NCBI RefSeq assembly: GCF_963675395.1
Contig: NZ_OY776223.1
Span: 62,001-126,000, forward strand
Reading direction: 5' to 3'
DNA: 64,000 bases
Source of the DNA: an uncultured Vibrio sp.
GTDB taxonomy: Bacteria; Pseudomonadota; Gammaproteobacteria; Enterobacterales; Vibrionaceae
In this document: piece after piece, positions 1,945-47,940 of the stretch
Layout of the letters: every line of letters begins with the position of its first letter
Position numbering within the stretch: the first letter of the stretch is position 1
Notes under the pieces: model-generated
Database searches by the model: none
Told to the model about the DNA's origin: nothing
What the model saw: only the letters and a program-made list of their open reading frames with translations
Translations under genes and position numbers: made by a program

Positions 1945-3035
1945 CTTAGTATCAAGTTTGAAGTGCGACACTTTCTACAGATGCGCATGAATATACTCCG
2001 TTGGTGTCCTATACCCAAGTCTTTTGCGTGGGCGCGTGTTTAGTTTGTCCGCAATTTCATTGCAGAGCTTCTGTGTCACGTGTGACATGGAAGTTCGTTT
2101 TGGTAAGTATTGTCGTATCAAGCCATTGGTGTTTTCATTAGTGCCTCGTTCCCATGAATGGTATGGATTTGCAAAGTAAAACAAACAGTTATGATGTTTT
2201 TCTAGTTGTGCATAACCATGAAATTCAGTGCCGTTATCCGCAGTTATCGTCTTAAAAGGTAAGTCAGAGCGGGTCATGATTTTGCTCATTCTTACGTTGA
2301 GCGACCCGCTTGTTCTATCGTCCATTTGCCCAATAAAAGTGTAGCCAGTCATTCTGTCGACTAAAGTCACGATACAGTGCTTGGTTCCGCGGCCAACGAC
2401 GGTATCAATTTCCCAATGACCAGGCTCTTTTCTGTGCTCAGCTTTTGCAGGTCTTTCGGTGATATGACGCTTTGCCGCCAGCCGTCCTCGGCTGTCTTTT
2501 GAGTTATACCTTTTACGCCTTTTCTTAGTGGACTGGCGTAGGTGTTTCCACAGTGTTCCACCGAGAGTTTTGTCGTTCCAGATGTGCTGATAAATGAGCT
2601 CATGACTCATTGTCGGATAGCCTCTCATCCTTAAGTATCCGACGATTTGGTCAGGGCTCCAATCCAGTCGTAGCAAGGCTTCAGGCAACTTGAAGTCGAT
2701 TTTGCTGTAGCGCTTATTTCGCCGTGAGCGGCTCAGCCGGTTGCGCGCCATTTGCTGTGCCCGTTCTGGTTGATAAGAGTACCTATCGAAGAACTTGTTG
2801 TAACGGCAATTACGTTCAACTTCTCGATAGATAGTGGCTTTGTGACGCCCCAGTTGTTTAGCTATTTTAACGGTACTAATTCCTTGCTTTCTGAGAGCAG
2901 AAATCATATACCTTTCGTTCTCAGTGAGGTGCGTGTATTTCATGTTTTTTACTTCTTGGCGGGAGCAAAGTTCATGATTATCGCACCTTACTGTTTTTAT
3001 GTTCAGAGGTGTCGCACTTCGTACTTGAATCCAAG
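1945..3035 (-). mobile_element. IS30-family element, copy 1
   Basis: 1091 bp. The ends are imperfect inverted repeats: left CTTAGTATCAAGTTTGAAG, right (complement) CTTGGATTCAAGTACGAAG, both followed by TGCGACAC. The right end lies exactly 5 nt before TAACAA of attC3. The flanking triplets (TAA left, GGG right) do not match, so the two flanks probably come from different insertions joined by recombination. Confidence 0.9.
1975..2943 (-). CDS. IS30-family transposase, copy 1
   Basis: 322 residues, ATG at 2943. An N-terminal helix-turn-helix (HLTENERYMISALRKQGIS, then VKIAKQLGRHKATIYREV) binds the IS ends. The DDE catalytic domain shows HWEIDTVVG (first Asp), TADNGTEF (second Asp) and WERGTNENTNGLIRQYLPK (Glu), in the order and length normal for IS30. 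The reading frame stays open upstream of ATG 2943, but homology starts there. All copies in the window encode the same protein except the one at 29376. Confidence 0.93.
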   Translation of the reverse strand: MKYTHLTENERYMISALRKQGISTVKIAKQLGRHKATIYREVERNCRYNKFFDRYSYQPERAQQMARNRLSRSRRNKRYSKIDFKLPEALLRLDWSPDQIVGYLRMRGYPTMSHELIYQHIWNDKTLGGTLWKHLRQSTKKRRKRYNSKDSRGRLAAKRHITERPAKAEHRKEPGHWEIDTVVGRGTKHCIVTLVDRMTGYTFIGQMDDRTSGSLNVRMSKIMTRSDLPFKTITADNGTEFHGYAQLEKHHNCLFYFANPYHSWERGTNENTNGLIRQYLPKRTSMSHVTQKLCNEIADKLNTRPRKRLGYRTPTEYIHAHL

Positions 3036-3040
3036 GGGTA

Positions 3041-3161
3041 TAACAAAGCATTTAAGAGCGATTCCCAACGCTTGGCATTTTTGTCTCTGCGTTGGGTTTC
3101 GCGTTTATGGTGCAATGTTTAGGTAGGGCGGTTGCGTTGCTCACGCCTTAATGCGGCGTTA
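3041..3161 (+). repeat. attC3
   Basis: Complete attC. Left core GCATTTAAG pairs with right CTTAATGC. The preceding GGGTA expects a cassette beginning GTTATACCC, but the cassette to its left begins GTTATATTA, so this attC was recombined in through the IS30 copy. Confidence 0.93.
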
Positions 3162-4762: not shown

Positions 4763-4872
4763 GTTTTATAACAATCTGTTTAAGAGTGATTCGCAACGCG
4801 TGGCATTTTTACTATGCGTTGCGTTTGGTGTTTAAGGTGGTATGCGGCGACTTTTGTATTGCGTTGCTCACA

Positions 4873-5107
4873 TATATGGTCTCCCCCAGTTTTGCAAGTC
4901 AGTAGCATGATTAAAAGCGCAGGTTAACTACCATATATACGGCCTGTTTTAACGGCTATTGCCTTGGCCAAGATGAGGCAGTCGAACACGAAGTCCTAAT
5001 CACCTTATCGACTTTAAAAGCCAGTGTGAGCACAAGGTTTTCAACGTGTAGGATTTATCCTGTTATTCATCTCACTACGTACTTTGCAAAGGGTGGTGTG
5101 TGTTGTT
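4873..5107 (-). ncRNA. Predicted bridge RNA/seekRNA region of IS1111-A
   Basis: The 235 nt downstream of the transposase stop are non-coding and identical in position in all nine copies. GTGTGAGCA at 5024-5032 is the complement of the left target half TGCTCAC[A]C, and CACCTTA at 5001-5007 equals the right target half. A minus-strand transcript would therefore present one guide for each target strand, 16 nt apart. IS1111-group elements are known to carry a guide RNA 3' of the transposase. RNA ends and folding are inferred. Confidence 0.55.
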
Positions 5108-6124
5108 TTATGCTGGTTGATACTCTTCATTTTTTGTTGTGACGGCCCAAGCGATCCGCATGAGTTTGTTCGCTAATGCTACTGCTGCTCGGTTTGGCCC
5201 TCGTCGCTCTTGGAGATCTAACATCCATTTACTCAGTTTGTCGGATTTAAATTTGGCTCGTCGTAAGGCGGCTCTAGCCCCATGAACAAGTAAGGACCGA
5301 ATATAAGTATTGCCTTGTTTCGTTATGCCTAGAAGCATCACGTTGCCGCCTGTTGTGTCTTGCCTTGGAACAAGCCCCATCGCAGCAGAGGCATCTCGCC
5401 CAGTTTTGAACTGTTGGCCTGAACCTAGCCATACGGCAACTGCTTGGCTAGTGAGTGGCCCAAAGCCAGGAATTGACATCAGTCGCTTGGCATTATCGAA
5501 TTGTTTGATGGTTTGGTTTAGCTTGTCTTCAAACCATTTGATTTGCTCATCGATATATAAATAGCGCTCATATTGACGTGATACAAGTTCACGTAATATT
5601 GGTGATAGTTGGTTGTTGGCGTCTTCCAGTGTTTCGGGAATGGCTTGTCGAAAAGAGGCTTTTCCTTTGGGGAGAATGATACCGTATTCAGCAATGAGTC
5701 CTCGAACTTGATTAATCAAACGGGTTCTTTCAGTGACGCATAATCTACGCATTCGAATCAGTGATTGAATATCTTGCTGTTCGATAGAGTTGTGTGGAAC
5801 GGGGTAATGTCGTTGGTAAAGGGCCAGCTCAGCAATGGCTTCAGCATCGTTATAGTCATTCTTTTGTTTGCGGCGCTGATTTTTAACATGCTGGGGTGGA
5901 TATAAAAGTACTTTGTGTCCAAGGTTTTCGAATTCACGAGCCCAGTAATGCGCCCCAGAACAGGCTTCCATCGCGATGATAGATGGAGTTTGATTTGCGA
6001 CGTAGTTAAGCAGTTTACTTCGTTGAAGTTTTTTACGGCCGAGGTTCTTTCCTTTATGATTGATTTCAAAAATAAAGAAGATATTTTTTGCTAAGTCGAT
6101 GCCGATGATTTTATGCTGAGTCAT
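5108..6124 (-). CDS. IS110-family (IS1111 group) transposase A, copy 1
   Basis: 338 residues from ATG 6124, preceded by AAAAGGAGAAG; an upstream in-frame start at 6178 is not needed. The N-terminal RuvC-like DEDD domain shows IGIDLAKN (Asp), MEACSGAHYWA (Glu) and KNDYNDAEAIAE (Asp pair). The C-terminal Tnp_20 domain shows SIPGFGPLTSQAV and TKQGNTYIRSLLVHGARAA, with the catalytic Ser region. All nine copies encode an identical protein, which indicates very recent spread. Confidence 0.93.
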   Translation of the reverse strand: MTQHKIIGIDLAKNIFFIFEINHKGKNLGRKKLQRSKLLNYVANQTPSIIAMEACSGAHYWAREFENLGHKVLLYPPQHVKNQRRKQKNDYNDAEAIAELALYQRHYPVPHNSIEQQDIQSLIRMRRLCVTERTRLINQVRGLIAEYGIILPKGKASFRQAIPETLEDANNQLSPILRELVSRQYERYLYIDEQIKWFEDKLNQTIKQFDNAKRLMSIPGFGPLTSQAVAVWLGSGQQFKTGRDASAAMGLVPRQDTTGGNVMLLGITKQGNTYIRSLLVHGARAALRRAKFKSDKLSKWMLDLQERRGPNRAAVALANKLMRIAWAVTTKNEEYQPA

Positions 6125-6224
6125 TGTCTTCTCCTTTTGCTTCGGGACCTGAACACTCCAAGCATGGCCGATGGACATGCGAAGAGGTAGGGGGAGACCA
6201 TCTCATCACCTTAACAGGGCGTTA

Positions 6225-7303: not shown

Positions 7304-8394
7304 CTTAGTATCAAGTTTGAAGTGCGACACTTTCTACAGATGCGCATGAATATACTCCGTTGGTGTCCTATACCCAAGTCTTTTGCGTGGGCGCGTGTTT
7401 AGTTTGTCCGCAATTTCATTGCAGAGCTTCTGTGTCACGTGTGACATGGAAGTTCGTTTTGGTAAGTATTGTCGTATCAAGCCATTGGTGTTTTCATTAG
7501 TGCCTCGTTCCCATGAATGGTATGGATTTGCAAAGTAAAACAAACAGTTATGATGTTTTTCTAGTTGTGCATAACCATGAAATTCAGTGCCGTTATCCGC
7601 AGTTATCGTCTTAAAAGGTAAGTCAGAGCGGGTCATGATTTTGCTCATTCTTACGTTGAGCGACCCGCTTGTTCTATCGTCCATTTGCCCAATAAAAGTG
7701 TAGCCAGTCATTCTGTCGACTAAAGTCACGATACAGTGCTTGGTTCCGCGGCCAACGACGGTATCAATTTCCCAATGACCAGGCTCTTTTCTGTGCTCAG
7801 CTTTTGCAGGTCTTTCGGTGATATGACGCTTTGCCGCCAGCCGTCCTCGGCTGTCTTTTGAGTTATACCTTTTACGCCTTTTCTTAGTGGACTGGCGTAG
7901 GTGTTTCCACAGTGTTCCACCGAGAGTTTTGTCGTTCCAGATGTGCTGATAAATGAGCTCATGACTCATTGTCGGATAGCCTCTCATCCTTAAGTATCCG
8001 ACGATTTGGTCAGGGCTCCAATCCAGTCGTAGCAAGGCTTCAGGCAACTTGAAGTCGATTTTGCTGTAGCGCTTATTTCGCCGTGAGCGGCTCAGCCGGT
8101 TGCGCGCCATTTGCTGTGCCCGTTCTGGTTGATAAGAGTACCTATCGAAGAACTTGTTGTAACGGCAATTACGTTCAACTTCTCGATAGATAGTGGCTTT
8201 GTGACGCCCCAGTTGTTTAGCTATTTTAACGGTACTAATTCCTTGCTTTCTGAGAGCAGAAATCATATACCTTTCGTTCTCAGTGAGGTGCGTGTATTTC
8301 ATGTTTTTTACTTCTTGGCGGGAGCAAAGTTCATGATTATCGCACCTTACTGTTTTTATGTTCAGAGGTGTCGCACTTCGTACTTGAATCCAAG
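7304..8394 (-). mobile_element. IS30-family element, copy 2
   Basis: 1091 bp, same ends as copy 1. The right end is 5 nt before TAACAA of attC7. The left flank CGC fits the expected 3' end of its cassette (which starts GTTATGGCGC), while the right flank GCAAC does not, so the flanks are recombinant. Confidence 0.9.
7334..8302 (-). CDS. IS30-family transposase, copy 2
   Basis: 322-residue protein identical to the copy at 1975-2943, with intact helix-turn-helix and DDE motifs. Confidence 0.93.
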   Translation of the reverse strand: MKYTHLTENERYMISALRKQGISTVKIAKQLGRHKATIYREVERNCRYNKFFDRYSYQPERAQQMARNRLSRSRRNKRYSKIDFKLPEALLRLDWSPDQIVGYLRMRGYPTMSHELIYQHIWNDKTLGGTLWKHLRQSTKKRRKRYNSKDSRGRLAAKRHITERPAKAEHRKEPGHWEIDTVVGRGTKHCIVTLVDRMTGYTFIGQMDDRTSGSLNVRMSKIMTRSDLPFKTITADNGTEFHGYAQLEKHHNCLFYFANPYHSWERGTNENTNGLIRQYLPKRTSMSHVTQKLCNEIADKLNTRPRKRLGYRTPTEYIHAHL

Positions 8395-8399
8395 GCAAC

Positions 8400-9010: not shown

Positions 9011-10346
9011 TATATGGTCTCCCCCAGTTTTGCAAGTCAGTAGCATGATTAAAAGCGCAGGTTAACTACCATATATACGGCCTGTTTTAACGGCTATTGC
9101 CTTGGCCAAGATGAGGCAGTCGAACACGAAGTCCTAATCACCTTATCGACTTTAAAAGCCAGTGTGAGCACAAGGTTTTCAACGTGTAGGATTTATCCTG
9201 TTATTCATCTCACTACGTACTTTGCAAAGGGTGGTGTGTGTTGTTTTATGCTGGTTGATACTCTTCATTTTTTGTTGTGACGGCCCAAGCGATCCGCATG
9301 AGTTTGTTCGCTAATGCTACTGCTGCTCGGTTTGGCCCTCGTCGCTCTTGGAGATCTAACATCCATTTACTCAGTTTGTCGGATTTAAATTTGGCTCGTC
9401 GTAAGGCGGCTCTAGCCCCATGAACAAGTAAGGACCGAATATAAGTATTGCCTTGTTTCGTTATGCCTAGAAGCATCACGTTGCCGCCTGTTGTGTCTTG
9501 CCTTGGAACAAGCCCCATCGCAGCAGAGGCATCTCGCCCAGTTTTGAACTGTTGGCCTGAACCTAGCCATACGGCAACTGCTTGGCTAGTGAGTGGCCCA
9601 AAGCCAGGAATTGACATCAGTCGCTTGGCATTATCGAATTGTTTGATGGTTTGGTTTAGCTTGTCTTCAAACCATTTGATTTGCTCATCGATATATAAAT
9701 AGCGCTCATATTGACGTGATACAAGTTCACGTAATATTGGTGATAGTTGGTTGTTGGCGTCTTCCAGTGTTTCGGGAATGGCTTGTCGAAAAGAGGCTTT
9801 TCCTTTGGGGAGAATGATACCGTATTCAGCAATGAGTCCTCGAACTTGATTAATCAAACGGGTTCTTTCAGTGACGCATAATCTACGCATTCGAATCAGT
9901 GATTGAATATCTTGCTGTTCGATAGAGTTGTGTGGAACGGGGTAATGTCGTTGGTAAAGGGCCAGCTCAGCAATGGCTTCAGCATCGTTATAGTCATTCT
10001 TTTGTTTGCGGCGCTGATTTTTAACATGCTGGGGTGGATATAAAAGTACTTTGTGTCCAAGGTTTTCGAATTCACGAGCCCAGTAATGCGCCCCAGAACA
10101 GGCTTCCATCGCGATGATAGATGGAGTTTGATTTGCGACGTAGTTAAGCAGTTTACTTCGTTGAAGTTTTTTACGGCCGAGGTTCTTTCCTTTATGATTG
10201 ATTTCAAAAATAAAGAAGATATTTTTTGCTAAGTCGATGCCGATGATTTTATGCTGAGTCATTGTCTTCTCCTTTTGCTTCGGGACCTGAACACTCCAAG
10301 CATGGCCGATGGACATGCGAAGAGGTAGGGGGAGACCATCTCATCA
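9011..10346 (-). mobile_element. IS1111-A element, copy 2
   Basis: 1336 bp, same ends, orientation and attC position as copy 1. The predicted guide RNA region is 9011-9245. Confidence 0.92.
9246..10262 (-). CDS. IS1111-group transposase A, copy 2
   Basis: Identical 338-residue DEDD transposase to the copy at 5108-6124. Confidence 0.93.
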   Translation of the reverse strand: MTQHKIIGIDLAKNIFFIFEINHKGKNLGRKKLQRSKLLNYVANQTPSIIAMEACSGAHYWAREFENLGHKVLLYPPQHVKNQRRKQKNDYNDAEAIAELALYQRHYPVPHNSIEQQDIQSLIRMRRLCVTERTRLINQVRGLIAEYGIILPKGKASFRQAIPETLEDANNQLSPILRELVSRQYERYLYIDEQIKWFEDKLNQTIKQFDNAKRLMSIPGFGPLTSQAVAVWLGSGQQFKTGRDASAAMGLVPRQDTTGGNVMLLGITKQGNTYIRSLLVHGARAALRRAKFKSDKLSKWMLDLQERRGPNRAAVALANKLMRIAWAVTTKNEEYQPA

Positions 10347-11458: not shown

Positions 11459-11729
11459 TACATGGATTCCCCCGGTTGTCAAACATCCGCTAAACTTCAA
11501 GTGATGGGTTTTGGACTGCCGCTCTACATTCGGTCTTTATATCAACGATTCGCATACGTTGTGACCCTGATGACGTTGCGCGACTGCGGTGCCTTATTCG
11601 TTAGATGACATTTGGTATGTCCGCCGCATTAACAGGCTCTCCGCAAGTGGTCTTAACCTATCTCCATCCATTGCGTCTGCAGTGACCCGGTGGGTGTGTT
11701 CTCGTTACGCTGCTTGAGTTAGTGTTAAC
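11459..11729 (-). ncRNA. Predicted bridge RNA/seekRNA region of IS1111-B
   Basis: 271 non-coding nt lie 3' of the transposase. GCCGCATTAA at 11623-11632 is the complement of the left target half TTAATGCGGC, and CGTTAG at 11599-11604 equals the right half. The order and spacing (18 nt) parallel those in IS1111-A. Transcript ends are not determinable here. Confidence 0.55.
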
Positions 11730-12755
11730 TTAAGCAGCGTAATTCTCGTATTCTGTTTGGTTGTGCAGTAGTGACCAGATGATTCGGGCATTCTTTGCAG
11801 CCAGAGCCACGATGGCTCGGTTCATGCCCCGACGTTCAAGAATACTGCGACACCACTGACTCAACCTATCTTGTTTATCTCCCAAGTTTGCCATAACCGT
11901 TCGGGCACCATGAACGAGCAAAGTTCGTAGATATTTATCACCATGCTTGGTGATTCTGCCTAACCTTGGTTTACCGCCAGTTGAATATTGTTTTGGGACT
12001 AACCCTAGCCAGGCAGAGAAATCTCGGCTCTTGTCGAACTGAGAGCCACTCCCTATCGACGCTAGTATCGCCGTAGCGGTTTGAGGGCCAATGCCTCTCA
12101 CCTTCATAATCCGCTGAACATTGTCACTGACTTTAGCAAAAGCATCGAAGACCTGTTCTGTGTCAGCAATACGTTGGTTTAACGCTTCAAGATGATGGTA
12201 AGCGTCAGCAATCGCCGTTCTGGCTAAATGAGGCAGTTCGTTTTCGGCGTCTTCGAGCATGAGGGGAACTTGCTTCATCAGCGATGAGCGTCCAACAGGT
12301 ATGATTAGTCCGAATTCGGAAAGTAGCGCTCGGATACGGTTCATTAAAGCAGTTCGCTCACGAACCCAATGTTCTCTCATACGGTGCACCGACAAAATGG
12401 CTTGTTGCTCAGGGGATTTTACGGGTACGAAGCGGGTAGATGAGTGTTGTACAGCTTGGCAAATAGAAGCCGCATCATTGAGGTCATTTTTACCTTTTGT
12501 ACGGTGTGGGACGACATACTTAACCGCCATGATGCGAGCATCATGGCCAAGTCCATGGAGTGTCCTTGCCCAGTAATGCGCTCCACCGCACGCTTCTAAG
12601 CCTATACGCATAGGTGGCATATTTGCTAATGTAGGCAGTAGCTTAGAGCGGGTAACGGATTTATGCAGGATGACTTTACCTTGTGAGTCAACGACATGAA
12701 TACTGAAGTGATTTTTAGCTAAGTCGATACCGCCAAAATAAGAATAATCAGACAT
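11730..12755 (-). CDS. IS110-family (IS1111 group) transposase B, copy 1
   Basis: 341 residues from ATG 12755 behind CTGGAGGCACC. DEDD motifs GGIDLAKNHF, LEACGGAHYWA and KGKNDLNDAASI are followed by the Tnp_20 segment VRGIGPQTATAILASIG and TKHGDKYLRTLLVHGARTV. It is related to but clearly distinct from transposase A. All three copies encode the same protein. Confidence 0.93.
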   Translation of the reverse strand: MSDYSYFGGIDLAKNHFSIHVVDSQGKVILHKSVTRSKLLPTLANMPPMRIGLEACGGAHYWARTLHGLGHDARIMAVKYVVPHRTKGKNDLNDAASICQAVQHSSTRFVPVKSPEQQAILSVHRMREHWVRERTALMNRIRALLSEFGLIIPVGRSSLMKQVPLMLEDAENELPHLARTAIADAYHHLEALNQRIADTEQVFDAFAKVSDNVQRIMKVRGIGPQTATAILASIGSGSQFDKSRDFSAWLGLVPKQYSTGGKPRLGRITKHGDKYLRTLLVHGARTVMANLGDKQDRLSQWCRSILERRGMNRAIVALAAKNARIIWSLLHNQTEYENYAA

Positions 12756-12851
12756 GGTGCCTCCAGTGCAAATAAGTACCACCTAAGTGTGGTCGATCCT
12801 CGGGAGGGGGAATCCATGTCATTCGTTATAACTCAAGAAGGAAAATAGAGA

Positions 12852-13716: not shown

Positions 13717-15052
13717 TATATGGTCTCCCCCAGTTTTGCAAGTCAGTAGCATGATTAAAAGCGCAGGTTAACTACCATATATACGGCCTGTTTTAACGGC
13801 TATTGCCTTGGCCAAGATGAGGCAGTCGAACACGAAGTCCTAATCACCTTATCGACTTTAAAAGCCAGTGTGAGCACAAGGTTTTCAACGTGTAGGATTT
13901 ATCCTGTTATTCATCTCACTACGTACTTTGCAAAGGGTGGTGTGTGTTGTTTTATGCTGGTTGATACTCTTCATTTTTTGTTGTGACGGCCCAAGCGATC
14001 CGCATGAGTTTGTTCGCTAATGCTACTGCTGCTCGGTTTGGCCCTCGTCGCTCTTGGAGATCTAACATCCATTTACTCAGTTTGTCGGATTTAAATTTGG
14101 CTCGTCGTAAGGCGGCTCTAGCCCCATGAACAAGTAAGGACCGAATATAAGTATTGCCTTGTTTCGTTATGCCTAGAAGCATCACGTTGCCGCCTGTTGT
14201 GTCTTGCCTTGGAACAAGCCCCATCGCAGCAGAGGCATCTCGCCCAGTTTTGAACTGTTGGCCTGAACCTAGCCATACGGCAACTGCTTGGCTAGTGAGT
14301 GGCCCAAAGCCAGGAATTGACATCAGTCGCTTGGCATTATCGAATTGTTTGATGGTTTGGTTTAGCTTGTCTTCAAACCATTTGATTTGCTCATCGATAT
14401 ATAAATAGCGCTCATATTGACGTGATACAAGTTCACGTAATATTGGTGATAGTTGGTTGTTGGCGTCTTCCAGTGTTTCGGGAATGGCTTGTCGAAAAGA
14501 GGCTTTTCCTTTGGGGAGAATGATACCGTATTCAGCAATGAGTCCTCGAACTTGATTAATCAAACGGGTTCTTTCAGTGACGCATAATCTACGCATTCGA
14601 ATCAGTGATTGAATATCTTGCTGTTCGATAGAGTTGTGTGGAACGGGGTAATGTCGTTGGTAAAGGGCCAGCTCAGCAATGGCTTCAGCATCGTTATAGT
14701 CATTCTTTTGTTTGCGGCGCTGATTTTTAACATGCTGGGGTGGATATAAAAGTACTTTGTGTCCAAGGTTTTCGAATTCACGAGCCCAGTAATGCGCCCC
14801 AGAACAGGCTTCCATCGCGATGATAGATGGAGTTTGATTTGCGACGTAGTTAAGCAGTTTACTTCGTTGAAGTTTTTTACGGCCGAGGTTCTTTCCTTTA
14901 TGATTGATTTCAAAAATAAAGAAGATATTTTTTGCTAAGTCGATGCCGATGATTTTATGCTGAGTCATTGTCTTCTCCTTTTGCTTCGGGACCTGAACAC
15001 TCCAAGCATGGCCGATGGACATGCGAAGAGGTAGGGGGAGACCATCTCATCA
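13717..15052 (-). mobile_element. IS1111-A element, copy 3
   Basis: 1336 bp, same ends, orientation and attC position as copy 1. The predicted guide RNA region is 13717-13951. Confidence 0.92.
13952..14968 (-). CDS. IS1111-group transposase A, copy 3
   Basis: Identical 338-residue DEDD transposase to the copy at 5108-6124. Confidence 0.93.
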   Translation of the reverse strand: MTQHKIIGIDLAKNIFFIFEINHKGKNLGRKKLQRSKLLNYVANQTPSIIAMEACSGAHYWAREFENLGHKVLLYPPQHVKNQRRKQKNDYNDAEAIAELALYQRHYPVPHNSIEQQDIQSLIRMRRLCVTERTRLINQVRGLIAEYGIILPKGKASFRQAIPETLEDANNQLSPILRELVSRQYERYLYIDEQIKWFEDKLNQTIKQFDNAKRLMSIPGFGPLTSQAVAVWLGSGQQFKTGRDASAAMGLVPRQDTTGGNVMLLGITKQGNTYIRSLLVHGARAALRRAKFKSDKLSKWMLDLQERRGPNRAAVALANKLMRIAWAVTTKNEEYQPA

Positions 15053-21849: not shown

Positions 21850-23185
21850 TATATGGTCTCCCCCAGTTTTGCAAGTCAGTAGCATGATTAAAAGCGCAGG
21901 TTAACTACCATATATACGGCCTGTTTTAACGGCTATTGCCTTGGCCAAGATGAGGCAGTCGAACACGAAGTCCTAATCACCTTATCGACTTTAAAAGCCA
22001 GTGTGAGCACAAGGTTTTCAACGTGTAGGATTTATCCTGTTATTCATCTCACTACGTACTTTGCAAAGGGTGGTGTGTGTTGTTTTATGCTGGTTGATAC
22101 TCTTCATTTTTTGTTGTGACGGCCCAAGCGATCCGCATGAGTTTGTTCGCTAATGCTACTGCTGCTCGGTTTGGCCCTCGTCGCTCTTGGAGATCTAACA
22201 TCCATTTACTCAGTTTGTCGGATTTAAATTTGGCTCGTCGTAAGGCGGCTCTAGCCCCATGAACAAGTAAGGACCGAATATAAGTATTGCCTTGTTTCGT
22301 TATGCCTAGAAGCATCACGTTGCCGCCTGTTGTGTCTTGCCTTGGAACAAGCCCCATCGCAGCAGAGGCATCTCGCCCAGTTTTGAACTGTTGGCCTGAA
22401 CCTAGCCATACGGCAACTGCTTGGCTAGTGAGTGGCCCAAAGCCAGGAATTGACATCAGTCGCTTGGCATTATCGAATTGTTTGATGGTTTGGTTTAGCT
22501 TGTCTTCAAACCATTTGATTTGCTCATCGATATATAAATAGCGCTCATATTGACGTGATACAAGTTCACGTAATATTGGTGATAGTTGGTTGTTGGCGTC
22601 TTCCAGTGTTTCGGGAATGGCTTGTCGAAAAGAGGCTTTTCCTTTGGGGAGAATGATACCGTATTCAGCAATGAGTCCTCGAACTTGATTAATCAAACGG
22701 GTTCTTTCAGTGACGCATAATCTACGCATTCGAATCAGTGATTGAATATCTTGCTGTTCGATAGAGTTGTGTGGAACGGGGTAATGTCGTTGGTAAAGGG
22801 CCAGCTCAGCAATGGCTTCAGCATCGTTATAGTCATTCTTTTGTTTGCGGCGCTGATTTTTAACATGCTGGGGTGGATATAAAAGTACTTTGTGTCCAAG
22901 GTTTTCGAATTCACGAGCCCAGTAATGCGCCCCAGAACAGGCTTCCATCGCGATGATAGATGGAGTTTGATTTGCGACGTAGTTAAGCAGTTTACTTCGT
23001 TGAAGTTTTTTACGGCCGAGGTTCTTTCCTTTATGATTGATTTCAAAAATAAAGAAGATATTTTTTGCTAAGTCGATGCCGATGATTTTATGCTGAGTCA
23101 TTGTCTTCTCCTTTTGCTTCGGGACCTGAACACTCCAAGCATGGCCGATGGACATGCGAAGAGGTAGGGGGAGACCATCTCATCA
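21850..23185 (-). mobile_element. IS1111-A element, copy 4
   Basis: 1336 bp. The base before the IS is C here and A in most copies, which fixes the left boundary at TATATGG. The predicted guide RNA region is 21850-22084. Confidence 0.92.
22085..23101 (-). CDS. IS1111-group transposase A, copy 4
   Basis: Identical 338-residue DEDD transposase to the copy at 5108-6124. Confidence 0.93.
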   Translation of the reverse strand: MTQHKIIGIDLAKNIFFIFEINHKGKNLGRKKLQRSKLLNYVANQTPSIIAMEACSGAHYWAREFENLGHKVLLYPPQHVKNQRRKQKNDYNDAEAIAELALYQRHYPVPHNSIEQQDIQSLIRMRRLCVTERTRLINQVRGLIAEYGIILPKGKASFRQAIPETLEDANNQLSPILRELVSRQYERYLYIDEQIKWFEDKLNQTIKQFDNAKRLMSIPGFGPLTSQAVAVWLGSGQQFKTGRDASAAMGLVPRQDTTGGNVMLLGITKQGNTYIRSLLVHGARAALRRAKFKSDKLSKWMLDLQERRGPNRAAVALANKLMRIAWAVTTKNEEYQPA

Positions 23186-25165: not shown

Positions 25166-26256
25166 CTTAGTATCAAGTTTGAAGTGCGACACTTTCTACA
25201 GATGCGCATGAATATACTCCGTTGGTGTCCTATACCCAAGTCTTTTGCGTGGGCGCGTGTTTAGTTTGTCCGCAATTTCATTGCAGAGCTTCTGTGTCAC
25301 GTGTGACATGGAAGTTCGTTTTGGTAAGTATTGTCGTATCAAGCCATTGGTGTTTTCATTAGTGCCTCGTTCCCATGAATGGTATGGATTTGCAAAGTAA
25401 AACAAACAGTTATGATGTTTTTCTAGTTGTGCATAACCATGAAATTCAGTGCCGTTATCCGCAGTTATCGTCTTAAAAGGTAAGTCAGAGCGGGTCATGA
25501 TTTTGCTCATTCTTACGTTGAGCGACCCGCTTGTTCTATCGTCCATTTGCCCAATAAAAGTGTAGCCAGTCATTCTGTCGACTAAAGTCACGATACAGTG
25601 CTTGGTTCCGCGGCCAACGACGGTATCAATTTCCCAATGACCAGGCTCTTTTCTGTGCTCAGCTTTTGCAGGTCTTTCGGTGATATGACGCTTTGCCGCC
25701 AGCCGTCCTCGGCTGTCTTTTGAGTTATACCTTTTACGCCTTTTCTTAGTGGACTGGCGTAGGTGTTTCCACAGTGTTCCACCGAGAGTTTTGTCGTTCC
25801 AGATGTGCTGATAAATGAGCTCATGACTCATTGTCGGATAGCCTCTCATCCTTAAGTATCCGACGATTTGGTCAGGGCTCCAATCCAGTCGTAGCAAGGC
25901 TTCAGGCAACTTGAAGTCGATTTTGCTGTAGCGCTTATTTCGCCGTGAGCGGCTCAGCCGGTTGCGCGCCATTTGCTGTGCCCGTTCTGGTTGATAAGAG
26001 TACCTATCGAAGAACTTGTTGTAACGGCAATTACGTTCAACTTCTCGATAGATAGTGGCTTTGTGACGCCCCAGTTGTTTAGCTATTTTAACGGTACTAA
26101 TTCCTTGCTTTCTGAGAGCAGAAATCATATACCTTTCGTTCTCAGTGAGGTGCGTGTATTTCATGTTTTTTACTTCTTGGCGGGAGCAAAGTTCATGATT
26201 ATCGCACCTTACTGTTTTTATGTTCAGAGGTGTCGCACTTCGTACTTGAATCCAAG
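25166..26256 (-). mobile_element. IS30-family element, copy 3
   Basis: 1091 bp. Left flank AAA is as expected for its cassette. The right flank CCTCA before TAACAA is not the expected AAACA, so the right side belongs to another cassette. Confidence 0.9.
25196..26164 (-). CDS. IS30-family transposase, copy 3
   Basis: 322-residue protein identical to the copy at 1975-2943. Confidence 0.93.
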   Translation of the reverse strand: MKYTHLTENERYMISALRKQGISTVKIAKQLGRHKATIYREVERNCRYNKFFDRYSYQPERAQQMARNRLSRSRRNKRYSKIDFKLPEALLRLDWSPDQIVGYLRMRGYPTMSHELIYQHIWNDKTLGGTLWKHLRQSTKKRRKRYNSKDSRGRLAAKRHITERPAKAEHRKEPGHWEIDTVVGRGTKHCIVTLVDRMTGYTFIGQMDDRTSGSLNVRMSKIMTRSDLPFKTITADNGTEFHGYAQLEKHHNCLFYFANPYHSWERGTNENTNGLIRQYLPKRTSMSHVTQKLCNEIADKLNTRPRKRLGYRTPTEYIHAHL

Positions 26257-26366: not shown

Positions 26367-27702
26367 TATATGGTCTCCCCCAGTTTTGCAAGTCAGTAGC
26401 ATGATTAAAAGCGCAGGTTAACTACCATATATACGGCCTGTTTTAACGGCTATTGCCTTGGCCAAGATGAGGCAGTCGAACACGAAGTCCTAATCACCTT
26501 ATCGACTTTAAAAGCCAGTGTGAGCACAAGGTTTTCAACGTGTAGGATTTATCCTGTTATTCATCTCACTACGTACTTTGCAAAGGGTGGTGTGTGTTGT
26601 TTTATGCTGGTTGATACTCTTCATTTTTTGTTGTGACGGCCCAAGCGATCCGCATGAGTTTGTTCGCTAATGCTACTGCTGCTCGGTTTGGCCCTCGTCG
26701 CTCTTGGAGATCTAACATCCATTTACTCAGTTTGTCGGATTTAAATTTGGCTCGTCGTAAGGCGGCTCTAGCCCCATGAACAAGTAAGGACCGAATATAA
26801 GTATTGCCTTGTTTCGTTATGCCTAGAAGCATCACGTTGCCGCCTGTTGTGTCTTGCCTTGGAACAAGCCCCATCGCAGCAGAGGCATCTCGCCCAGTTT
26901 TGAACTGTTGGCCTGAACCTAGCCATACGGCAACTGCTTGGCTAGTGAGTGGCCCAAAGCCAGGAATTGACATCAGTCGCTTGGCATTATCGAATTGTTT
27001 GATGGTTTGGTTTAGCTTGTCTTCAAACCATTTGATTTGCTCATCGATATATAAATAGCGCTCATATTGACGTGATACAAGTTCACGTAATATTGGTGAT
27101 AGTTGGTTGTTGGCGTCTTCCAGTGTTTCGGGAATGGCTTGTCGAAAAGAGGCTTTTCCTTTGGGGAGAATGATACCGTATTCAGCAATGAGTCCTCGAA
27201 CTTGATTAATCAAACGGGTTCTTTCAGTGACGCATAATCTACGCATTCGAATCAGTGATTGAATATCTTGCTGTTCGATAGAGTTGTGTGGAACGGGGTA
27301 ATGTCGTTGGTAAAGGGCCAGCTCAGCAATGGCTTCAGCATCGTTATAGTCATTCTTTTGTTTGCGGCGCTGATTTTTAACATGCTGGGGTGGATATAAA
27401 AGTACTTTGTGTCCAAGGTTTTCGAATTCACGAGCCCAGTAATGCGCCCCAGAACAGGCTTCCATCGCGATGATAGATGGAGTTTGATTTGCGACGTAGT
27501 TAAGCAGTTTACTTCGTTGAAGTTTTTTACGGCCGAGGTTCTTTCCTTTATGATTGATTTCAAAAATAAAGAAGATATTTTTTGCTAAGTCGATGCCGAT
27601 GATTTTATGCTGAGTCATTGTCTTCTCCTTTTGCTTCGGGACCTGAACACTCCAAGCATGGCCGATGGACATGCGAAGAGGTAGGGGGAGACCATCTCAT
27701 CA
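26367..27702 (-). mobile_element. IS1111-A element, copy 5
   Basis: 1336 bp, same ends, orientation and attC position as copy 1. The predicted guide RNA region is 26367-26601. Confidence 0.92.
26602..27618 (-). CDS. IS1111-group transposase A, copy 5
   Basis: Identical 338-residue DEDD transposase to the copy at 5108-6124. Confidence 0.93.
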   Translation of the reverse strand: MTQHKIIGIDLAKNIFFIFEINHKGKNLGRKKLQRSKLLNYVANQTPSIIAMEACSGAHYWAREFENLGHKVLLYPPQHVKNQRRKQKNDYNDAEAIAELALYQRHYPVPHNSIEQQDIQSLIRMRRLCVTERTRLINQVRGLIAEYGIILPKGKASFRQAIPETLEDANNQLSPILRELVSRQYERYLYIDEQIKWFEDKLNQTIKQFDNAKRLMSIPGFGPLTSQAVAVWLGSGQQFKTGRDASAAMGLVPRQDTTGGNVMLLGITKQGNTYIRSLLVHGARAALRRAKFKSDKLSKWMLDLQERRGPNRAAVALANKLMRIAWAVTTKNEEYQPA

Positions 27703-32496: not shown

Positions 32497-33832
32497 TATA
32501 TGGTCTCCCCCAGTTTTGCAAGTCAGTAGCATGATTAAAAGCGCAGGTTAACTACCATATATACGGCCTGTTTTAACGGCTATTGCCTTGGCCAAGATGA
32601 GGCAGTCGAACACGAAGTCCTAATCACCTTATCGACTTTAAAAGCCAGTGTGAGCACAAGGTTTTCAACGTGTAGGATTTATCCTGTTATTCATCTCACT
32701 ACGTACTTTGCAAAGGGTGGTGTGTGTTGTTTTATGCTGGTTGATACTCTTCATTTTTTGTTGTGACGGCCCAAGCGATCCGCATGAGTTTGTTCGCTAA
32801 TGCTACTGCTGCTCGGTTTGGCCCTCGTCGCTCTTGGAGATCTAACATCCATTTACTCAGTTTGTCGGATTTAAATTTGGCTCGTCGTAAGGCGGCTCTA
32901 GCCCCATGAACAAGTAAGGACCGAATATAAGTATTGCCTTGTTTCGTTATGCCTAGAAGCATCACGTTGCCGCCTGTTGTGTCTTGCCTTGGAACAAGCC
33001 CCATCGCAGCAGAGGCATCTCGCCCAGTTTTGAACTGTTGGCCTGAACCTAGCCATACGGCAACTGCTTGGCTAGTGAGTGGCCCAAAGCCAGGAATTGA
33101 CATCAGTCGCTTGGCATTATCGAATTGTTTGATGGTTTGGTTTAGCTTGTCTTCAAACCATTTGATTTGCTCATCGATATATAAATAGCGCTCATATTGA
33201 CGTGATACAAGTTCACGTAATATTGGTGATAGTTGGTTGTTGGCGTCTTCCAGTGTTTCGGGAATGGCTTGTCGAAAAGAGGCTTTTCCTTTGGGGAGAA
33301 TGATACCGTATTCAGCAATGAGTCCTCGAACTTGATTAATCAAACGGGTTCTTTCAGTGACGCATAATCTACGCATTCGAATCAGTGATTGAATATCTTG
33401 CTGTTCGATAGAGTTGTGTGGAACGGGGTAATGTCGTTGGTAAAGGGCCAGCTCAGCAATGGCTTCAGCATCGTTATAGTCATTCTTTTGTTTGCGGCGC
33501 TGATTTTTAACATGCTGGGGTGGATATAAAAGTACTTTGTGTCCAAGGTTTTCGAATTCACGAGCCCAGTAATGCGCCCCAGAACAGGCTTCCATCGCGA
33601 TGATAGATGGAGTTTGATTTGCGACGTAGTTAAGCAGTTTACTTCGTTGAAGTTTTTTACGGCCGAGGTTCTTTCCTTTATGATTGATTTCAAAAATAAA
33701 GAAGATATTTTTTGCTAAGTCGATGCCGATGATTTTATGCTGAGTCATTGTCTTCTCCTTTTGCTTCGGGACCTGAACACTCCAAGCATGGCCGATGGAC
33801 ATGCGAAGAGGTAGGGGGAGACCATCTCATCA
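32497..33832 (-). mobile_element. IS1111-A element, copy 6
   Basis: 1336 bp, same ends, orientation and attC position as copy 1. The predicted guide RNA region is 32497-32731. Confidence 0.92.
32732..33748 (-). CDS. IS1111-group transposase A, copy 6
   Basis: Identical 338-residue DEDD transposase to the copy at 5108-6124. Confidence 0.93.
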   Translation of the reverse strand: MTQHKIIGIDLAKNIFFIFEINHKGKNLGRKKLQRSKLLNYVANQTPSIIAMEACSGAHYWAREFENLGHKVLLYPPQHVKNQRRKQKNDYNDAEAIAELALYQRHYPVPHNSIEQQDIQSLIRMRRLCVTERTRLINQVRGLIAEYGIILPKGKASFRQAIPETLEDANNQLSPILRELVSRQYERYLYIDEQIKWFEDKLNQTIKQFDNAKRLMSIPGFGPLTSQAVAVWLGSGQQFKTGRDASAAMGLVPRQDTTGGNVMLLGITKQGNTYIRSLLVHGARAALRRAKFKSDKLSKWMLDLQERRGPNRAAVALANKLMRIAWAVTTKNEEYQPA

Positions 33833-34360: not shown

Positions 34361-35696
34361 TATATGGTCTCCCCCAGTTTTGCAAGTCAGTAGCATGATT
34401 AAAAGCGCAGGTTAACTACCATATATACGGCCTGTTTTAACGGCTATTGCCTTGGCCAAGATGAGGCAGTCGAACACGAAGTCCTAATCACCTTATCGAC
34501 TTTAAAAGCCAGTGTGAGCACAAGGTTTTCAACGTGTAGGATTTATCCTGTTATTCATCTCACTACGTACTTTGCAAAGGGTGGTGTGTGTTGTTTTATG
34601 CTGGTTGATACTCTTCATTTTTTGTTGTGACGGCCCAAGCGATCCGCATGAGTTTGTTCGCTAATGCTACTGCTGCTCGGTTTGGCCCTCGTCGCTCTTG
34701 GAGATCTAACATCCATTTACTCAGTTTGTCGGATTTAAATTTGGCTCGTCGTAAGGCGGCTCTAGCCCCATGAACAAGTAAGGACCGAATATAAGTATTG
34801 CCTTGTTTCGTTATGCCTAGAAGCATCACGTTGCCGCCTGTTGTGTCTTGCCTTGGAACAAGCCCCATCGCAGCAGAGGCATCTCGCCCAGTTTTGAACT
34901 GTTGGCCTGAACCTAGCCATACGGCAACTGCTTGGCTAGTGAGTGGCCCAAAGCCAGGAATTGACATCAGTCGCTTGGCATTATCGAATTGTTTGATGGT
35001 TTGGTTTAGCTTGTCTTCAAACCATTTGATTTGCTCATCGATATATAAATAGCGCTCATATTGACGTGATACAAGTTCACGTAATATTGGTGATAGTTGG
35101 TTGTTGGCGTCTTCCAGTGTTTCGGGAATGGCTTGTCGAAAAGAGGCTTTTCCTTTGGGGAGAATGATACCGTATTCAGCAATGAGTCCTCGAACTTGAT
35201 TAATCAAACGGGTTCTTTCAGTGACGCATAATCTACGCATTCGAATCAGTGATTGAATATCTTGCTGTTCGATAGAGTTGTGTGGAACGGGGTAATGTCG
35301 TTGGTAAAGGGCCAGCTCAGCAATGGCTTCAGCATCGTTATAGTCATTCTTTTGTTTGCGGCGCTGATTTTTAACATGCTGGGGTGGATATAAAAGTACT
35401 TTGTGTCCAAGGTTTTCGAATTCACGAGCCCAGTAATGCGCCCCAGAACAGGCTTCCATCGCGATGATAGATGGAGTTTGATTTGCGACGTAGTTAAGCA
35501 GTTTACTTCGTTGAAGTTTTTTACGGCCGAGGTTCTTTCCTTTATGATTGATTTCAAAAATAAAGAAGATATTTTTTGCTAAGTCGATGCCGATGATTTT
35601 ATGCTGAGTCATTGTCTTCTCCTTTTGCTTCGGGACCTGAACACTCCAAGCATGGCCGATGGACATGCGAAGAGGTAGGGGGAGACCATCTCATCA
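34361..35696 (-). mobile_element. IS1111-A element, copy 7
   Basis: 1336 bp, only 529 bp from copy 6, same orientation. The predicted guide RNA region is 34361-34595. Confidence 0.92.
34596..35612 (-). CDS. IS1111-group transposase A, copy 7
   Basis: Identical 338-residue DEDD transposase to the copy at 5108-6124. Confidence 0.93.
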   Translation of the reverse strand: MTQHKIIGIDLAKNIFFIFEINHKGKNLGRKKLQRSKLLNYVANQTPSIIAMEACSGAHYWAREFENLGHKVLLYPPQHVKNQRRKQKNDYNDAEAIAELALYQRHYPVPHNSIEQQDIQSLIRMRRLCVTERTRLINQVRGLIAEYGIILPKGKASFRQAIPETLEDANNQLSPILRELVSRQYERYLYIDEQIKWFEDKLNQTIKQFDNAKRLMSIPGFGPLTSQAVAVWLGSGQQFKTGRDASAAMGLVPRQDTTGGNVMLLGITKQGNTYIRSLLVHGARAALRRAKFKSDKLSKWMLDLQERRGPNRAAVALANKLMRIAWAVTTKNEEYQPA

Positions 35697-45226: not shown

Positions 45227-46562
45227 TATATGGTCTCCCCCAGTTTTGCAAGTCAGTAGCATGATTAAAAGCGCAGGTTAACTACCATATATACGGCCTG
45301 TTTTAACGGCTATTGCCTTGGCCAAGATGAGGCAGTCGAACACGAAGTCCTAATCACCTTATCGACTTTAAAAGCCAGTGTGAGCACAAGGTTTTCAACG
45401 TGTAGGATTTATCCTGTTATTCATCTCACTACGTACTTTGCAAAGGGTGGTGTGTGTTGTTTTATGCTGGTTGATACTCTTCATTTTTTGTTGTGACGGC
45501 CCAAGCGATCCGCATGAGTTTGTTCGCTAATGCTACTGCTGCTCGGTTTGGCCCTCGTCGCTCTTGGAGATCTAACATCCATTTACTCAGTTTGTCGGAT
45601 TTAAATTTGGCTCGTCGTAAGGCGGCTCTAGCCCCATGAACAAGTAAGGACCGAATATAAGTATTGCCTTGTTTCGTTATGCCTAGAAGCATCACGTTGC
45701 CGCCTGTTGTGTCTTGCCTTGGAACAAGCCCCATCGCAGCAGAGGCATCTCGCCCAGTTTTGAACTGTTGGCCTGAACCTAGCCATACGGCAACTGCTTG
45801 GCTAGTGAGTGGCCCAAAGCCAGGAATTGACATCAGTCGCTTGGCATTATCGAATTGTTTGATGGTTTGGTTTAGCTTGTCTTCAAACCATTTGATTTGC
45901 TCATCGATATATAAATAGCGCTCATATTGACGTGATACAAGTTCACGTAATATTGGTGATAGTTGGTTGTTGGCGTCTTCCAGTGTTTCGGGAATGGCTT
46001 GTCGAAAAGAGGCTTTTCCTTTGGGGAGAATGATACCGTATTCAGCAATGAGTCCTCGAACTTGATTAATCAAACGGGTTCTTTCAGTGACGCATAATCT
46101 ACGCATTCGAATCAGTGATTGAATATCTTGCTGTTCGATAGAGTTGTGTGGAACGGGGTAATGTCGTTGGTAAAGGGCCAGCTCAGCAATGGCTTCAGCA
46201 TCGTTATAGTCATTCTTTTGTTTGCGGCGCTGATTTTTAACATGCTGGGGTGGATATAAAAGTACTTTGTGTCCAAGGTTTTCGAATTCACGAGCCCAGT
46301 AATGCGCCCCAGAACAGGCTTCCATCGCGATGATAGATGGAGTTTGATTTGCGACGTAGTTAAGCAGTTTACTTCGTTGAAGTTTTTTACGGCCGAGGTT
46401 CTTTCCTTTATGATTGATTTCAAAAATAAAGAAGATATTTTTTGCTAAGTCGATGCCGATGATTTTATGCTGAGTCATTGTCTTCTCCTTTTGCTTCGGG
46501 ACCTGAACACTCCAAGCATGGCCGATGGACATGCGAAGAGGTAGGGGGAGACCATCTCATCA
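45227..46562 (-). mobile_element. IS1111-A element, copy 9
   Basis: 1336 bp, same position as other copies. It is separated by only 12 bp of attC from the next IS. The predicted guide RNA region is 45227-45461. Confidence 0.92.
45462..46478 (-). CDS. IS1111-group transposase A, copy 9
   Basis: Identical 338-residue DEDD transposase to the copy at 5108-6124. Confidence 0.93.
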   Translation of the reverse strand: MTQHKIIGIDLAKNIFFIFEINHKGKNLGRKKLQRSKLLNYVANQTPSIIAMEACSGAHYWAREFENLGHKVLLYPPQHVKNQRRKQKNDYNDAEAIAELALYQRHYPVPHNSIEQQDIQSLIRMRRLCVTERTRLINQVRGLIAEYGIILPKGKASFRQAIPETLEDANNQLSPILRELVSRQYERYLYIDEQIKWFEDKLNQTIKQFDNAKRLMSIPGFGPLTSQAVAVWLGSGQQFKTGRDASAAMGLVPRQDTTGGNVMLLGITKQGNTYIRSLLVHGARAALRRAKFKSDKLSKWMLDLQERRGPNRAAVALANKLMRIAWAVTTKNEEYQPA

Positions 46563-46574
46563 CCTTAACAGGGC

Positions 46575-47940
46575 TACATGGATTCCCCCGGTTGTCAAAC
46601 ATCCGCTAAACTTCAAGTGATGGGTTTTGGACTGCCGCTCTACATTCGGTCTTTATATCAACGATTCGCATACGTTGTGACCCTGATGACGTTGCGCGAC
46701 TGCGGTGCCTTATTCGTTAGATGACATTTGGTATGTCCGCCGCATTAACAGGCTCTCCGCAAGTGGTCTTAACCTATCTCCATCCATTGCGTCTGCAGTG
46801 ACCCGGTGGGTGTGTTCTCGTTACGCTGCTTGAGTTAGTGTTAACTTAAGCAGCGTAATTCTCGTATTCTGTTTGGTTGTGCAGTAGTGACCAGATGATT
46901 CGGGCATTCTTTGCAGCCAGAGCCACGATGGCTCGGTTCATGCCCCGACGTTCAAGAATACTGCGACACCACTGACTCAACCTATCTTGTTTATCTCCCA
47001 AGTTTGCCATAACCGTTCGGGCACCATGAACGAGCAAAGTTCGTAGATATTTATCACCATGCTTGGTGATTCTGCCTAACCTTGGTTTACCGCCAGTTGA
47101 ATATTGTTTTGGGACTAACCCTAGCCAGGCAGAGAAATCTCGGCTCTTGTCGAACTGAGAGCCACTCCCTATCGACGCTAGTATCGCCGTAGCGGTTTGA
47201 GGGCCAATGCCTCTCACCTTCATAATCCGCTGAACATTGTCACTGACTTTAGCAAAAGCATCGAAGACCTGTTCTGTGTCAGCAATACGTTGGTTTAACG
47301 CTTCAAGATGATGGTAAGCGTCAGCAATCGCCGTTCTGGCTAAATGAGGCAGTTCGTTTTCGGCGTCTTCGAGCATGAGGGGAACTTGCTTCATCAGCGA
47401 TGAGCGTCCAACAGGTATGATTAGTCCGAATTCGGAAAGTAGCGCTCGGATACGGTTCATTAAAGCAGTTCGCTCACGAACCCAATGTTCTCTCATACGG
47501 TGCACCGACAAAATGGCTTGTTGCTCAGGGGATTTTACGGGTACGAAGCGGGTAGATGAGTGTTGTACAGCTTGGCAAATAGAAGCCGCATCATTGAGGT
47601 CATTTTTACCTTTTGTACGGTGTGGGACGACATACTTAACCGCCATGATGCGAGCATCATGGCCAAGTCCATGGAGTGTCCTTGCCCAGTAATGCGCTCC
47701 ACCGCACGCTTCTAAGCCTATACGCATAGGTGGCATATTTGCTAATGTAGGCAGTAGCTTAGAGCGGGTAACGGATTTATGCAGGATGACTTTACCTTGT
47801 GAGTCAACGACATGAATACTGAAGTGATTTTTAGCTAAGTCGATACCGCCAAAATAAGAATAATCAGACATGGTGCCTCCAGTGCAAATAAGTACCACCT
47901 AAGTGTGGTCGATCCTCGGGAGGGGGAATCCATGTCATTC
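46575..47940 (-). mobile_element. IS1111-B element, copy 3
   Basis: 1366 bp, inserted between GGC and GTTA of the attC already interrupted by IS1111-A. The predicted guide RNA region is 46575-46845. Confidence 0.92.
46846..47871 (-). CDS. IS1111-group transposase B, copy 3
   Basis: Identical 341-residue transposase to the copy at 11730-12755. Confidence 0.93.
   Translation of the reverse strand: MSDYSYFGGIDLAKNHFSIHVVDSQGKVILHKSVTRSKLLPTLANMPPMRIGLEACGGAHYWARTLHGLGHDARIMAVKYVVPHRTKGKNDLNDAASICQAVQHSSTRFVPVKSPEQQAILSVHRMREHWVRERTALMNRIRALLSEFGLIIPVGRSSLMKQVPLMLEDAENELPHLARTAIADAYHHLEALNQRIADTEQVFDAFAKVSDNVQRIMKVRGIGPQTATAILASIGSGSQFDKSRDFSAWLGLVPKQYSTGGKPRLGRITKHGDKYLRTLLVHGARTVMANLGDKQDRLSQWCRSILERRGMNRAIVALAAKNARIIWSLLHNQTEYENYAA

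Follow-up and report, generated by a model that had tools for sequence, protein, structure and literature searches.

The window, that is, the whole stretch of 64,000 nucleotides analyzed here, carries nine copies of an IS element, which we call IS1111-A (IS-A). One copy (1336 bp) occupies positions 4873..6208 on the minus strand, and the others, also of 1336 bp each, are located at 9011-10346, 13717-15052, 21850-23185, 26367-27702, 32497-33832, 34361-35696, 39833-41168, and 45227-46562. The ends were placed from the sTIR (ATGGTCTCCCCC on the left and GGGGGAGACCAT on the right), a perfect repeat of 12 bp, with extensions of 7 bp and 3 bp, respectively: the left end (6190..6208, minus strand) consists of the extension TGATGAG and the sTIR, and the right end (4873..4887, minus strand) of the sTIR and the extension ATA. 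A DEDD transposase is encoded at 5108..6178 on the minus strand (a 356-amino acid frame whose start is possibly over-extended), and the 3' non-coding region (NCR) at 4873..5107, on the same strand, is the candidate source of a seekRNA or bridge RNA. No sequence differences were found among the nine window copies, and another copy, present on another contig, was 100% identical over 1336 bp, giving ten IS-A copies found in the genome. IS-A is distributed over the cassette array in the window and occurs once on this other contig.

The transposase matched the profiles PF01548 and PF02371, both over cut-off, as well as NF033542 ("IS110 family RNA-guided transposase") with 313.5 bits (cut-off of 140). 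A search of PDB sequences yielded, at E below 1e-3, weak matches alone, to the transposases of ISCro4 and IS621. The characteristics of the IS1111 group were found in IS-A, including a DEDD transposase with a C-terminal Transposase_20 domain, an sTIR within the 11-13 bp range, flanked by an extension of 7 bp on the left and one of 3 bp on the right, and a long NCR (235 nt downstream of the transposase gene, with 30 nt upstream if the longest start is taken). The fixed attC position and single orientation of the nine window copies and the one further copy are those of the IS1111-attC group. Close relatives of the IS elements described here were found in Vibrio, and a Vibrio host is therefore likely.

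All ten IS-A copies were inserted at TTAAGG/KGTGA (the slash indicates the insertion point) beside an attC-type end, with a uniform orientation relative to attC; the sites were assigned to attC on the basis of the repeated GGCGTTA end and the sequence around it, without a dedicated attC model. The empty site was reconstructed as TGCTCACA/CCTTAA on the plus strand, corresponding to TTAAGG/TGTGAGCA in the orientation of the IS, and the target sequence in this orientation is TTAAGG/TGTGAGCAACG. The flanks of the window copies read TTAAGG/TGTGAGCAACGC in five cases, TTAAGG/TGTGAACAACGC in two, and TTAAGG/GGTGAGCAACGC in two; on the other contig, the copy is flanked by TTAAGG/TGTGAGGCACCC. The TTAAGG/TGTGA flanks, together with the sequences TGCTCAC and TAAGGTG, were kept in eight full-length IS-A relatives among the matches listed, and the IS-A relative L048 was inserted at TTAAGG/GGTGA. 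In the copies at 32497-33832 and 21850-23185, the right-hand core is GG, not TG. The TG at the left end therefore comes from the IS, and the core bases flanking an inserted copy need not equal those of the original target.

The occupancy of attC sites was also determined. A regular expression recovered 31 sites in the window, eight of which were occupied by IS-A, one was not attC-like, and 22 were empty; the ninth IS-A copy fell outside this count, the end required by the expression having been lost to a second element, IS-B. The expression misses other forms of attC, with the window containing 51 GGCGTTR motifs, 31 of them with TTAA nearby. Seven occupied sites had the right flank TGTGARCAAC, for which there were no empty equivalents among the sites so recovered (Fisher p = 1.4e-5). 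If the first core base was ignored, nine occupied and 11 empty sites belonged to the same class, versus 0 and 11 for the remainder (p = 0.012). Given that the core bases beside a copy may be derived from the donor, we set occupancy aside as weak proof of specificity. A 1.3-kb insertion inside attC should stop excision of the corresponding cassette, which suggests how cassette arrays become locked.

The initial annotation had placed two guide segments in the NCR, GTGTGAGCA (plus-strand positions 5024-5032) and CACCTTA (5001-5007, same strand), and both positions were right. On the minus strand, the target top-strand guide TGCTCACAC (5024..5032) can pair with G/TGTGAGCA, being complementary to attC top-strand positions -1 to +8. 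The target bottom-strand guide TAAGGTG (5001..5007, minus strand) is identical to TAAGG/TG, positions -5 to +2, and so would pair with the bottom strand, in agreement with the suggested pairing with opposite strands; the predicted overlap of the guides at the insertion point amounts to 3 nt (GTG). CACCTTA had been described as identical to the right half of the site. This identity applies to the reconstructed empty site and is lost beside the inserted copy, where the "CA" belongs to the left end of the IS. The reading of both target strands, an overlap at the insertion point, and a top-strand match located 5' of the bottom-strand match are characteristic of a seekRNA or bridge RNA, and the strands, order, and overlap conform to the published IS1111 rule (Siddiquee et al. 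2024, PMC11187229), as had been supposed.

Among 20000 dinucleotide shuffles of the IS-A NCR, a top guide of at least 9 nt was obtained in 97 and a bottom guide of at least 7 nt in 1345, with both lengths being reached together in 8. Judged against these shuffles, the match in one IS-A element alone is suggestive, and the weight of the guide evidence is carried by the cross-element swap test described below. Both target guide segments are present in all nine window copies; these copies being identical, their number is no independent evidence. Rfam gave no family match, either for the whole window at the gathering score or for positions 4850-5130 at E up to 1. The frequencies with which shuffles attain both guide lengths, or that of the bottom guide by itself, are what can be said for attributing the matches to coincidence in a short region beside a repeated target; this reading is rendered barely credible by the swapped-target test, by guide swaps on one scaffold, and by the core dinucleotide shared by both loops.

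For the swap test, 247 genomes of the same family were searched, 127 of which contained a hit with an E value no higher than 1e-20, and 60 further stretches were added from the loci listed. The resulting pool contained 101 transposase matches; 93 of these had an anchored sTIR, the eight without one being dropped, and they represented 76 unique elements. Exclusion of L027 (internal deletion) and L042 (ambiguous repeat) left 74 elements, which were grouped by NCR similarity into 22 clusters, and one representative per cluster was tested. The mean match of the top target guide was 8.05 nt for the own target versus 5.10 nt for swapped targets, and that of the bottom target guide was 6.68 nt versus 4.74 nt (0/20000 permutations in each case), with the 22 clusters sharing descent and so not being fully independent. 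The own target was top-scoring or tied in 20 of the 22 rows, and was tied or beaten by other targets in six rows. The covariation of guides with targets that the initial annotation had proposed to look for among relatives is therefore present, both in this test and in the form of guide swaps on one scaffold.

The guides followed their targets also where the insertion sites of a cluster were quite unlike attC. This finding bears on the notion that attC is recognized by the transposase through protein contacts or as a folded single strand, with the guides being relics or captured attC sequence. Sites of the attC type do fold as single strands, and it is at such sites that the IS-A copies in the genome studied here are located. 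Given that guides track targets at sites that do not resemble attC, and that the guide block is exchanged among relatives whose scaffold is otherwise similar, we consider this notion very improbable.

Such swaps were apparent among relatives of IS-B, a second attC-targeting IS1111 element of 1366 bp (11459..12824, minus strand) with other copies at 42600-43965 and 46575-47940 in the window and one on the other contig. IS-B was inserted at TAAC/GCC, in the attC type shared with IS-A and 12 bp from the IS-A site. Its target guides (minus strand, copy 11459..12824) are TTAATGCGGC (11632-11623), which can pair with GCCGCATTAA, and CTAACG (11604-11599), which is identical to CTAAC/G, again in the IS1111 guide order; its donor guides are GTCATC (11574-11569) and ATGTAGA (11529-11523). 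At 45227..47940 (minus strand), IS-A and IS-B occupy one attC, 12 bp apart, and the same pair was observed in another genome of the genus (L024). Nine IS-B relatives, with a mean column identity of 91%, contained an 11-nt block in four versions. In L037, L040, L075, L078, and L085, the block and the site of the same copy agreed at 9-10 of 12 positions, besides at most two further G-U pairs, whereas in L046, L076, L081, and L082 they agreed at just 7 of 12; several IS-B-type copies are thus located at sites poorly matching their guide. No second copy of the L040 or L075 site was found in the respective genomes at up to one mismatch, and for the L037 site, an exact recurrence and one containing a single mismatch were located 369 bp apart. 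With its identical copies at attC, with IS-B reading the adjacent part of attC, and with relatives carrying changed guides, IS-A amounts to a clean natural experiment on insertion guided by RNA.

In a consensus fold, the target-binding domain predicted for IS-A (4986..5049, minus strand) would be closed by pairing of ACACG (5049-5045) with CGUGU (4990-4986), and an apical hairpin, GGCUUUUAAAGUC (5010..5022, minus strand), is predicted between the two target guides. The closing pairs are invariant in ten IS-A-type sequences and so provide no covariation support in IS-A, and covariation for the apical hairpin is confined to its IS-B equivalent. Single-sequence folding energies for IS-A were no better than those of shuffles (z of 0.60, -0.43, -0.53, and -1.07). 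The initial annotation had asked whether both guides fall in one internal loop or in stems, and the picture is mixed. In IS-A the guides flank one hairpin, and the bottom guide is paired with ACCUUG in the consensus fold; for IS-B, a three-helix model of the family places both target guides within one internal loop between covarying helices. This model was based on 25 of 26 aligned sequences (L098 was left out), 19 of them distinct. With the structure drawn from the window's own sequence, a choice that favors the model, 90.4% of cells were paired versus 84.0% in shuffles (0/500). Changes on both sides of a pair affected four pairs and 15 cells versus 1.9 and 4.7 in shuffles (4/500 and 0/500, respectively), further pair types were not raised (4 versus 5.0 in shuffles), and 29-43% of cells were paired when the partners were slid.

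Two additional segments of the NCR match the RE-LE junction of IS-A itself. The probable donor top-strand guide CTCATC (4972..4977, minus strand) can pair with GATGAG of the left end, and the probable donor bottom-strand guide ATATATG (4932..4938, minus strand) corresponds to ATATA of the right end plus the core TG. Both lie in a probable donor-binding domain (4926..4983, minus strand) that would be closed by GACUGCC (4983-4977) and GGUAGUU (4932-4926). The ten-sequence consensus fold places the donor guides opposite each other, unpaired save for one base each, and the stem of the domain shows a compensatory change, with one closing pair being GU in six sequences and UA in four. When the 22 clusters were compared, the match of the donor bottom guide averaged 6.68 nt with the own junction versus 5.54 nt with swapped junctions (0/20000 permutations), and that of the donor top guide, the weakest of the four guides by match length, 6.23 nt versus 5.38 nt (5/20000). 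RE-LE junctions are alike among clusters, so that in 14 of the 22 rows the donor guides scored better, ties not counted, with the junction of some other cluster. In 20 of the 22 clusters, the distance between the donor bottom guide and the 3' end was 57-74 nt. The donor top guide contains a variable dinucleotide, which was paired at 39 of 44 positions, 31 of them Watson-Crick, in the 22 of 30 elements with a CATC motif (0/100000; the first CATC was used where two were present). A held-out plasmid set of 12 elements, of which 11 were analyzed, yielded eight analyzable elements after removal of two without an anchored sTIR and one that was mis-anchored; a donor bottom match of 6-7 nt was present in all eight, with L120 being near the IS-B relatives and so not independent.

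The core dinucleotide was identical in the target and donor loops in 18 of 20 scorable clusters (0/100000 permutations), a count obtained with a placement that favored agreement at the first core base; with this preference removed, it was identical in 18 of 21 scorable cases among 30 elements (0/100000). In all 22 clusters, the donor-loop core had the same first base as the left end, and in 21 of them the same first base as the target. For the second base, the donor-loop core agreed with the left end in 11 clusters and with the target in 19. Donor guides to both strands of the RE-LE junction and a shared core are characteristic of a bridge RNA, and the presence in IS-A of two segments matching its own junction, together with the same core in both loops, points to a two-loop bridge RNA as the most likely product of the NCR.

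It is also conceivable that the RNA is a seekRNA that reads attC alone, that the transposase reads the ends via the sTIR, and that the donor-like segments are promoter sequence, scaffold sequence, or the like. An 82-nt form, for which the account by Siddiquee et al. (2024, PMC11187229) describes target matches and mentions no donor guides, is sufficient for movement of ISEc11, and the long sTIRs of IS1111 elements could be read by protein. The donor segments nevertheless follow their own junction over 22 clusters, are present in eight of eight analyzable held-out elements, and share their core dinucleotide with the target loop, all of which makes a target-only RNA distinctly unlikely. The activity of the 82-nt form does imply that the donor loop of a two-loop RNA may be dispensable.

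The RNA-guided mechanism and attC-targeting members of the group have already been published, and IS-A is a further, clear example. SeekRNAs were shown for the attC-targeting elements ISKpn4 and ISPst6 and inferred for ISPa25 (Siddiquee et al. 2024, PMC11187229). IS-A resembles these elements in its IS1111 membership, the NCR downstream of the transposase gene, insertion in attC (the exact attC position being outside this comparison), and two opposite-strand guides with the top match first, and it resembles ISEc11 in guide matches that overlap at the target. It differs from ISKpn4, ISPst6, and ISPa25 in its location in a chromosomal cassette array and, with regard to the descriptions in that paper, in having donor guides. 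Like the bridge RNA of IS621 and the IS110 group (Durrant et al. 2024, PMC11208160), the IS-A RNA would contain target and donor loops, read both strands, and share a core dinucleotide. In IS110 elements, however, the RNA is located upstream of the recombinase, whereas that of IS-A is downstream and accompanied by a long sTIR, and the guide order of IS110 is the reverse of that of IS1111 according to Siddiquee et al. (PMC11187229). Durrant et al. (PMC11208160) predicted target and donor guides by manual inspection for six IS110/IS1111 elements, including in their Extended Data Fig. 10 ISPa11, ISCARN28, and ISAzs32 (the last two being taken as IS1111 from the order of the list), and noted that many IS1111 RNAs have their donor nucleotides in a multiloop. 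Compared with these six predictions, our analysis covers 22 clusters with a swap control and eight further elements. We found no systematic donor-guide test for IS1111 in open-licence PMC papers, preprints not included, and do not claim its absence from print. The wider interest of IS-A lies in the covariation of the donor loop and core and in the natural guide swaps; donor-guide covariation bears on whether IS1111 RNAs read the target alone or target and donor, as in IS621.

Direct observations comprise where the guides lie and in what order, how far they are conserved and covary, and which sites the ten copies occupy; on this basis we consider it very probable that IS-A is an RNA-guided, attC-targeting IS1111-group element whose RNA has a target loop and a donor loop. 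From the sequence we infer the following course of events. A promoter formed by the joined ends in the circle would allow the transposase gene and the 3' NCR to be transcribed together, and the NCR transcript would be processed to the seekRNA or bridge RNA. In one loop, the two target guides would read opposite strands of attC at TTAAGG/TGTGA, meeting at the core TG; in the second loop, the two donor guides would read the RE-LE junction of the element, with the same core. The DEDD transposase would then join the circle to the target by recombination at the core, in a single orientation.

A -35-like sequence, TTGCAA (4892..4897, minus strand), is positioned in the circle 17 bp before a -10-like sequence, TATGAT, that spans the RE-LE junction, and in 21 of the 22 clusters the best -10-like hexamer had its start 2 bp ahead of the junction, a count made without a shuffled control. 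The probable donor guide would therefore read promoter-like bases. It is possible, although we think it rather unlikely, that the donor guide of IS1111 elements reads the -10 box of the very circle-junction promoter that makes the RNA, so that donor recognition and RNA supply are locked together. If so, pairing of the RNA and transposase at the junction would compete with RNA polymerase, constituting a feedback, and drift of the donor loop would be constrained, whereas the target loop would be freely swappable. Such coupling would account for changes of the target guide block among relatives in which the scaffold and donor loop stay alike.

The cassette array in the window (about 1062-48600, C2:63-111 kb) has no integron integrase adjoining it. 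In the whole genome, a single integrase match exceeded the family cut-off, at C2:3149020-3149967; a regular expression detected about ten attC sites belonging to this locus, and none of the PF02371 matches of the genome lies inside this integrase-side array. IS30-family transposase genes are also present in the array in the window, at 1975-3051 and 25196-26164 as well as at 7334-8398, the last appearing near-identical to that at 1975-3051. Two further IS1111 clusters (L012, L013, and L014, from the genome studied here, and L079, L080, and L088) were inserted where sequence meets a T run, with a G/C-rich stretch upstream in part of the copies, and these insertion sites look like intrinsic terminators in sequence. 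The guides of L012 that match its own site are ACAAAAAA and GGGCTTTT.
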